Positions 22,861 to 25,205 of a stretch of 64,000 nt of DNA are shown here, piece after piece. The stretch covers positions 1,658,930 through 1,722,929 of the forward strand of contig NZ_KZ614146.1 of NCBI RefSeq assembly GCF_002886185.1, read 5' to 3'. Position numbers and translations under genes: made by a program. Origin of the DNA: Salipaludibacillus neizhouensis (lineage in GTDB: Bacteria; Bacillota; Bacilli; Bacillales; Salisediminibacteriaceae). The notes beneath the pieces are model-generated. The model was given only the letters and a program-made list of their open reading frames with translations. It made no database searches and had not been told where the DNA came from. Position 1 is the stretch's first letter, and every line of letters starts with the position of its first letter.

Positions 22861-24228
22861 ATGTTAAATAGAGTTAGGAAACGAAACCAGCCTCCTGGAC
22901 CAAAAGGGAAGGTAATAAAAGGCAGTTTAAACGATTTTCAAGCTGGACCTCTACCATTTTTATTCAAAACAGCAAAGGAATACGGACCAATTAGTTGCTT
23001 TCGATTTGGACCTTTCCAAAATGTTTACCTTGTAAATGAACCAGACTTAATAAAAGAAATACTTGTTACAAAACAAAAGTCATTTGTGAAATCACGGGAT
23101 ATCCAAACACTTAAAGCTGTGGTGGGTGAGGGACTGTTAACAAGCGAAAAAGACATGCATATGCAGCAGAGAAGAATGATACAACCCTCTTTTAAAAAAT
23201 CGCATATTTCAAGTTACGCACAAGATATGATAGATACAACACATTCTTTTATTTCAAAATGGAAGAATGAAGAAGAAAAAGTGATCACTGACGACATGAT
23301 GGATATTGCACTTGGCATCATCACAAAAACAATGTTTAGTATGGATTTCGAAGAGGGTGCCAAAAAACTAGGGGAACCGATGGATGCAGTAATGAAGATT
23401 GGGGTTAAAAGAATGAGGTCACTTATTCAACTACCTCTCTGGCTTCCAACAAAAAACAATCGTAAATTAAAAAAAGCTGTATCCAAACTTGATCAAGAGA
23501 TTTATCAGATTATTGAAAGGCGTCGACAAGAGCCAGGTGTTCACTCTGATCTATTAGGTGTTTTAATGGAAGCAAAAGACGAAGATGACGGAGAAGGGAT
23601 GTCTGACTTGCAGCTTCGAGACGAACTAATGACGATTTTTCTCGCGGGTCATGAAACAACGGCTAATTTGTTATCCTGGACGCTTTACTTACTGTCTCAA
23701 AATCCAAAAGCGGAGAAAAAACTCTATGATGAAATCGTCGGTGTCACTGGCGATAATCAAGTAACTCCTGAGAACTTTGCTGACCTTCCCTATACTCAAT
23801 TTGTTATCTGGGAATCCATGCGTTTATATCCACCTGCATATGTTATTGGGCGACAAGTCGACAAGAAAGTGAACATTGGAGGATATCATTTTAAAAAGGG
23901 TGAAATGGTGTTAATGAGTCAATATGTCATGCATCGAAATTCTGATTACTTTGACAATCCTGAGGAATTTATCCCCGATCGATTTGCCGATAATTTTATG
24001 AAGAAACTACCAACTTATGCCTATTTTCCATTTGGAGGAGGTCCCAGAGTTTGTGTTGGAAATCATTTTTCATTAATGGAGGGAGTCCTCGCATTAGCTG
24101 TAATGATGAAAGAGTACAGTGTGAAAATGGCACCAAATCATGGAGAAATTAAACCACAACCTCTTGTTACTCTTAGACCTAAGTATGGGCTTCGAATGAT
24201 TATAAAAAGGCGGGCAAGCAATTCATAA
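22861..24228 (+). CDS. cytochrome P450
   Basis: A 455-residue soluble P450 monooxygenase with all family signatures: proline-rich start (PPGPKG), I-helix oxygen-binding motif AGHETTANLL (about 260), ExxR motif ESMR (about 318), PERF-like motif FIPDRF, and haem-ligand loop FGGGPRVCVG (Cys about 398). No reductase domain is fused and no ferredoxin gene is adjacent, so redox partners lie elsewhere. The sequence style is like Bacillus CYP197/CYP102-haem-domain relatives; I cannot assign the subfamily or substrate. AGAAGGAGG lies 13 bases before the ATG. It is a single-gene unit ended by the terminator at 24241. Confidence 0.92.
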   Translation: MLNRVRKRNQPPGPKGKVIKGSLNDFQAGPLPFLFKTAKEYGPISCFRFGPFQNVYLVNEPDLIKEILVTKQKSFVKSRDIQTLKAVVGEGLLTSEKDMHMQQRRMIQPSFKKSHISSYAQDMIDTTHSFISKWKNEEEKVITDDMMDIALGIITKTMFSMDFEEGAKKLGEPMDAVMKIGVKRMRSLIQLPLWLPTKNNRKLKKAVSKLDQEIYQIIERRRQEPGVHSDLLGVLMEAKDEDDGEGMSDLQLRDELMTIFLAGHETTANLLSWTLYLLSQNPKAEKKLYDEIVGVTGDNQVTPENFADLPYTQFVIWESMRLYPPAYVIGRQVDKKVNIGGYHFKKGEMVLMSQYVMHRNSDYFDNPEEFIPDRFADNFMKKLPTYAYFPFGGGPRVCVGNHFSLMEGVLALAVMMKEYSVKMAPNHGEIKPQPLVTLRPKYGLRMIIKRRASNS

Positions 24229-24292: not shown

Positions 24293-25000
24293 TTAATTTT
24301 TAGAAGGTGGCTCGCAGCCATCTTCATCACAAATAGCACCTGTCGGACTATTCGCTGCTTGAGAAAGTTCATCTTGGTCGATAATTTGTTGTAAAGATTG
24401 TACCAATGCATCCGTTGGTTGAGCACCTGTAATTGCGTATTTTCCGTTAATGAGGAAAAAAGGAATACTTTGTATACCATGATCCTGTGCTTTTTGTTCG
24501 TCTGCACGAACTTCTTCACTCATATCATTACTTGCAAGCATTTCAGCAACATCATCGCGATTTAAACCAACCTCTTCGGCTAACTTTATGAGCATATCGT
24601 GATCACCAATATGCTTTGATTCAGAATAATGTGCACGTAGAAGTCGATCAGTCATTTCATGCATTAGGCTATGTTTTTTGGCGAACATCGTTAAACGGTG
24701 TGCATCAAATGTATTGGTTAATACTTGCGTCTCAAATTGAAAATCCAAACCAGCCTCTTGGGCCATTTGTTCCATATTATTACAATTGGATTTAGCCTGT
24801 TCCAAACTCATTCCATATTTTTCTGCTAATTTCTCGTAAATATTATAATTTACGTCCCGTTCCATGTTGGGATCCAACTCAAAGGATCTATAATTTACAG
24901 TAACAGGATGGTCTATTTGTTGAAGGGCGTCTTCCAGACGCTTTTTGCCAATATGGCAAAATGGTCAAGCGAAATCCGTCCACATATCAATGAATAGCAT
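24293..25000 (-). CDS. FrnE/DsbA-family oxidoreductase with in-frame UGA at the active-site Cys (candidate selenoprotein)
   Basis: A thioredoxin-fold, DsbA-family (FrnE) thiol oxidoreductase of 235 codons, the usual family length. The ATG at 25000 has GGAGG seven to eight bases upstream and the frame reads MLFIDMWTDFA-UGA-PFCHIGKK. UGA (24967-24965) stands exactly where homologues have the first Cys of CPFC. The rest (YRSFELDPN, then IQSIPFFLINGKYAITGAQ with cis-Pro) is intact to a TAA. Downstream of UGA, mRNA hairpins GCGUCU-GGA-AGACGC (loop 29 nt after UGA) and an 8-bp stem at 24943-24961 could act as a bacterial SECIS. Alternatives: a nonsense mutation or sequencing error, or re-initiation at TTG 24877 giving a form without the motif. 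Which applies cannot be settled here. Confidence 0.75.
24927..24941 (-). promoter_or_regulatory. SECIS-like hairpin candidate downstream of the FrnE UGA
   Basis: On the minus strand GCGTCT-GGA-AGACGC is a perfect 6-bp stem with a 3-nt loop beginning with G. The loop starts 29 nt after the UGA. Published bacterial SECIS features are a stem-loop with G among the first two loop bases and the loop roughly 16-37 nt from UGA, so the geometry fits. A second perfect hairpin (24943-24961) lies between it and the UGA. Short hairpins also arise by chance. Confidence 0.4.
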
Positions 25001-25205
25001 AGTTAAAACCTCCATCTATTTTTCTTACACAGTTAGTATATCTATTATGATTTAATTTGACCAATTATTTGCTCTTTACTATTGAAAATAATTCTATCTT
25101 CAAGAAGGTAATAAATTCATGCATGGGGATGCCTCAAAATTCAATCATGATATAATTAACTTCGTTCGATCACAATATAGAGGAAACAAAGGAGGGACAT
25201 TACAT

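Follow-up and report, generated by a model that had tools for sequence, protein, structure and literature searches.

The window, a 64,000-nt stretch of the Salipaludibacillus neizhouensis genome (C1:1658930-1722929 of an assembly of 5.5 Mb that is 99.95% complete), carries on its minus strand a gene for an FrnE/DsbA-type oxidoreductase, which we call Sec-frnE (Table 1). The frame runs from an ATG at 25000 through 11 codons to a UGA at 24967-24965, its sole internal stop, and then through 223 open codons to a TAA, giving a translation that begins MLFIDMWTDFA-UGA-PFCHIGKKRLEDAL... Re-reading confirmed what an earlier note had described here, namely a GGAGG site, a start at ATG 25000, and a frame of 235 codons that is open except for a UGA at the position of the nucleophilic Cys. 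The FrnE/DsbA identity claimed in the same note was borne out by matches to Pfam PF01323 (DSBA; product residues 4-204, E 5.1e-44) and, in the PDB, to Deinococcus radiodurans FrnE (5cnw; residues 3-230, E 1.6e-44). In alignments, the UGA codon falls at the position of the first Cys in CPWC of 5cnw and in CPFC of Cys-containing homologues. The FrnE subfamily is recognised by a cytoplasmic disulfide reductase/isomerase activity. FrnE proteins are described, in the available text of PMC8945050, as having CP(W/F)C at the active site and, in many cases, a C-terminal CXXXXC motif. In the window protein the DSBA domain spans most of the chain, the active site reads UPFC and the tail contains CDEDGC; among the homologues, the last 45 aa include a CX4C motif in 32/39 UGA rows and in 82/85 Cys rows. 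The product is probably a cytoplasmic thiol-disulfide oxidoreductase of the FrnE type. Sec-frnE seems to stand alone because the flanking genes are convergent (one ending at 24228, P450-like on reading) and divergent (listed from 25119). Promoter and terminator counts were within one standard deviation of those in shuffles. When the own genome was searched with the window protein, this gene was the single match at E <= 0.001, and a scan of the window for other frames interrupted by one UGA and carrying a redox-like motif yielded nothing convincing.

Table 1. Positions of Sec-frnE and its elements in the window, and of Sec-related genes elsewhere in the host genome
Feature	Position	Strand	Basis
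Sec-frnE gene, FrnE/DsbA-type oxidoreductase	24293..25000	minus	235 codons + TAA, one UGA read through; PF01323 and 5cnw matches
UGA codon 12, first Cys position of CxxC (UPFC), putative selenocysteine	24965..24967	minus	alignment with homologues
TGC codon 15, second active-site Cys, putative resolving role	24956..24958	minus	sequence, homologue alignment
GGAGG ribosome-binding site	25009..25013	minus	sequence
Codons of C-terminal CDEDGC (CX4C) motif	24314..24331	minus	translation
Candidate bacterial SECIS, stem GCGUCU/AGACGC, loop GGA	24927..24941	minus	folding; conserved, covarying in 50 distinct segments
Further predicted stem, located between the UGA and the SECIS, UUUUGCCA/UGGCAAAA	24943..24961	minus	predicted folding only
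selA	C1:1981953-1983335		534.4 bits, over curated cut-off
selD	C1:1984348-1985277		412.2 bits, over curated cut-off; in-frame TGA
selB	C1:1985647-1987503		369.9 bits, over curated cut-off
tRNA-Sec(UCA)	C1:1987768-1987860		59.2 bits, cut-off 47; ARAGORN tRNA-SeC(tca)
Rdx (SelW-like) candidate frame, 90 aa, CMQU (CxxU)	L022:5938-6210, C1 about 1983937-1984209	minus (L022)	PF10262 E 1.3e-19, UGA read as residue

Homologues were present at E <= 1e-20 in 15 of 35 genomes of the family, the own genome included, with UGA at codon 12 in ten and Cys in five. A selA gene over the cut-off accompanies nine of the ten UGA forms and three of the five Cys forms; the UGA-form genome in which selA was not found (G018) is 76% complete. 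At the level of the order (Bacillales, including Bacillus sp. CECT 9360, Priestia abyssalis and Virgibacillus litoralis), 351 of 397 genomes matched alignment A1 at E <= 1e-30, and the best 150 of these 351 were read, one row per genome: the active site is UGA in 54 and Cys in 96, with no other residue. TGA occurs in 55 of these 150 rows. The one in which it lies away from the active site, from genome G042, reads DFACPFC and was rejected as a UGA form, its TGA being elsewhere (L182). In L252, a second match proved antisense and the active site was read as Cys. Across the order, 181 of 397 genomes contain selA over the cut-off, and within the best 150 of 351 it is present in 54/54 UGA genomes versus 38/96 Cys genomes; we claim no p-value for this association because the genomes are related and not independent. 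A class-level search of 398 genomes gave a match at E <= 1e-90 in 72; TGA appears in 14 rows, five from genomes already counted, and the other nine all read UPFC. The family thus combines an in-frame UGA with Cys at the same position in homologues, the pattern by which Sec proteins are recognised. Matches in plasmids number 735 records, none reaching 60% identity, and a scan of named genome contigs with the single window protein gave no match. In the homologue from G026 (L023:1501-2199, minus) another in-frame UGA stands directly ahead of the C-terminal CX4C; either translation ends there, with loss of the tail, or this codon too may specify Sec.

Downstream of the UGA lies the hairpin GCGUCU-GGA-AGACGC, which had been noted earlier as a SECIS candidate and was found again at 24941-24927, with 29 nt from the UGA to the first base of the loop. 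Published rules, in the part of a 2026 review available to us (PMC13188914), give a 3–9 nt apical loop with G in its first two positions, an upper stem of 4–16 bp, and a loop 16–37 nt after the UGA; here the loop is GGA, the stem has six pairs and the distance is within that range. For the 50 nt from the UGA onward the folding energy is -15.6 kcal/mol, against a shuffle mean of -7.7 (z -3.3; 0/200 shuffles as good). When random synonymous codons were assigned to the window gene alone, 4540 of 20000 versions reached its pair count (6/7). Since synonymous shuffling matches that count not rarely, the hairpin in one gene is weaker evidence than its appearance suggests, and because this single-gene test is unexceptional the weight of the argument rests on conservation across relatives.

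Seven pairs are formed in 42 of 61 main-group UGA segments, six in 18 and five in one. The corresponding numbers are 0, 3 and 12 among 85 Cys homologues, and 2, 1 and 12 in a second Cys set of 91 order-level rows, where the three Cys forms with seven or six pairs are all without the CUG-GA loop context. The GGA loop is present in 47/47 distinct main-group UGA segments, the distance of the hairpin from the UGA is fixed across UGA forms, and compensatory changes are present. Covariation was assessed in 50 distinct segments, some of them from a sister subgroup with the stem CGGC-UGGAU-GCCG, against shuffles that do not preserve relatedness: 93.7% of stem cells are paired (89.9 in shuffles), three of the seven pairs are changed on both sides (0.7 in shuffles; 6/500 as high), and 21 cells are changed on both sides (2.0 in shuffles; 0/500 as high). 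Slid controls reached at most 67.4% paired cells. The number of pair types (7) in these 50 segments was not above shuffles (248/500 as high), and the outermost pair is unformed in 10/50 rows and the innermost in 7/50. Synonymous recoding of the 61 genes gave a mean of 4.62 pairs and a highest value in 300 rounds of 4.95, compared with 6.67 observed, and a Leu codon is CTG in 61/61 UGA forms, whereas CTG makes up 8.3% of the Leu codons in the rest of these genes. Judged by its conservation across relatives, the downstream hairpin is more than chance.

These data bear directly on two other accounts of the UGA. The first, that the gene is a pseudogene or the sequence is in error, the codon really being Cys or the gene having died by nonsense mutation, we consider very improbable: one base does separate TGA from a Cys codon, but the same UGA recurs in 54 order-level genomes (among the best 150 of 351) and in 9/9 further class-level rows, the frame stays open beyond it for its remaining 223 codons, and the SECIS stem covaries among relatives. 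The second, that translation really ends at the UGA and internal initiation, for example from the TTG at 24877, yields a shortened FrnE domain, is likewise very improbable. An ORF of 194 aa starting with TTG does exist, but its product would be without the whole active site, yet relatives conserve the residues that flank the UGA (MWTDFA and PFC-IG).

The own genome contains SelA, SelB, SelD and tRNA-Sec(UCA), the set by which Sec decoding is recognised, encoded some 300 kb from the window on the contig to which it belongs. By comparison, among 14 control genomes the cut-off was passed by tRNA-Sec in five, selB in two, selA in one and selD in two. That the UGA is read as Trp or Cys through an altered genetic code or by a suppressor tRNA can be dismissed almost entirely, for although the alternate residue in relatives is Cys, UGA acts as an ordinary stop in the window, where it closes 10 of the 39 open stretches of more than 200 codons (not all of them genes), and the genome has tRNA-Sec with selA, selB and selD. 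The host may have other selenoproteins besides the putative Sec-FrnE. The Rdx frame between selA and selD is a further candidate, and SelD is likely itself a selenoprotein, its frame (L022:6325-7380, plus) having an in-frame UGA (GUGCK). Formate dehydrogenase alpha gave three matches in the own genome, one of them over the cut-off (C2:553930-555975, C1:1725415-1727463 and C3:400359-402269); none of the three contains an in-frame stop or UGA, and a motif search detected U/C-H-x-P in a single locus of the three. A tyrosine integrase gene starts about 180 bp past tRNA-Sec (L022:9769-11059), with a gene for an Mrr-type restriction endonuclease beyond it (L022:11404-12555), and an island has possibly been inserted at the tRNA-Sec gene.

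We regard it as highly probable that Sec-frnE encodes a FrnE-type selenoprotein oxidoreductase in which Sec is inserted at UGA codon 12 by way of the downstream hairpin. That Sec is inserted had been proposed in the earlier note, together with checks for Sec machinery and for UGA or Cys in relatives; both checks came out in its favour (all four Sec genes present; UGA and Cys forms at 10 and 5 in the family, and at 54 and 96 in the best 150 of 351 for the order), and the covarying hairpin lends it further support. In the scheme that we infer from sequence for Sec insertion, catalytic role, resolving path, location and substrates alike, a ribosome would reach the UGA at codon 12 of the mRNA, SelB-GTP carrying Sec-tRNA(UCA) would bind the hairpin 29 nt downstream, and selenocysteine would be inserted in place of termination. 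The selenol of U12 would then be the attacking group of the enzyme and Cys15 its resolving partner, while the C-terminal CX4C pair may regenerate the active site, by analogy with what has been proposed for D. radiodurans FrnE.

A quick tree built from 124 rows unites the 37 full-length UGA forms of the main group in one clade among Cys forms (SH-aLRT 100). Both the active site and the residues coded by the SECIS lie in the first 32 columns of the alignment; with these columns removed, a second quick tree, of 67 rows, again placed 22/22 UGA rows in one clade (87), near Cys rows that are mostly from Paenibacillaceae. This would fit a single Cys-to-Sec change giving rise to the main-group UGA forms, followed by descent and perhaps transfer. 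A distant pair of UGA forms, L035 and L036, branches far from the main UGA clade in the 124-row tree; these two and a paralogue in Bacillus sp. CECT 9360 (L183) read UPFC with different hairpins, the predicted short hairpins of this distant DsbA-like group being of the CGGGA-CAG-UCCCG and GCGGA-GGC-UCCGC type. The distant group may represent a second, separate Cys-to-Sec origin. It is conceivable, but on balance unlikely, that Sec-FrnE is a single Bacilli-wide lineage with one origin from Cys-FrnE which, as a UxxC + CX4C redox enzyme that is a main Sec client, would together with SelD and Rdx be a reason to keep Sec decoding without a Sec-containing formate dehydrogenase.

Aerobic bacteria rarely keep selenoproteins, according to the part of the 2026 review available to us (PMC13188914), and Sec users are both aerobic and anaerobic in the available text of a 2016 survey (PMC5029168); a putative Sec client spread over Bacillales may bear on this aerobic retention of selenoproteins. 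Because standard gene calling ends the frame at codon 12, annotations of many Bacillales genomes may lack the enzyme or list it as a pseudogene. With UGA and Cys forms both well sampled, the family lends itself to asking what a disulfide enzyme gains from selenium, and its covarying SECIS is useful for the study of SelB recognition in Gram-positive bacteria.

A known DsbA-like UxxC selenoprotein (COG2761, which we take to be the FrnE group; 'DsbA-like protein form 1', PF01323) shares the Pfam domain of the window protein and, as here, has Sec for the first Cys. Proteins of this kind were reported in 2005 from Sargasso Sea data (excerpts of PMC1088965), and because UxxC DsbA-like selenoproteins have been known since then, Sec-FrnE belongs, as one branch, to an established selenoprotein family. 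In the portions of later sources available to us, a 2006 table lists four (PMC1794560), a 2016 table has the row '41, 45', presumably organisms and genes (PMC5029168), and a 2026 review places the DsbA-like selenoprotein among those predicted with high confidence (PMC13188914). The holders of COG2761 selenoproteins named in these portions, compared by description, are Anaeromyxobacter, Desulfovibrio, Desulfotomaculum, Asgard archaea and marine metagenomes, with no Bacillales among them. Nor did we find a report of a Bacillales DsbA/FrnE selenoprotein in the literature covered, which comprised mostly titles and the openings of abstracts. The statement in the earlier note that no case is established in Bacillaceae is uncontradicted by the consulted parts of PMC1088965, PMC1794560, PMC5029168 and PMC13188914, but is weakened by the second of these, a survey that counts three selenoproteins in three families for Bacillales without naming them; one of the three could be DsbA-like. 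Sec-FrnE is apparently more widespread in Bacilli than this literature, in the parts seen, suggests.

D. radiodurans FrnE (DR_0659; PDB 5cnw and others) resembles the window protein in sequence, in its CxxC and in its C-terminal CXXXXC, as far as the available text of PMC8945050 describes it, but has Cys (CPWC) at the first active-site position, where the window protein probably has Sec. The Cys-form FrnE proteins of Bacillaceae and Paenibacillaceae (CPFC) share the same motifs and up to 50% identity with the window protein at 80 named loci, which were found by the CPFC pattern and are therefore Cys by selection, the 96 order-level Cys rows being free of such selection. They differ from Sec-frnE in having TGT or TGC at the active site, and in them the hairpin is rare.
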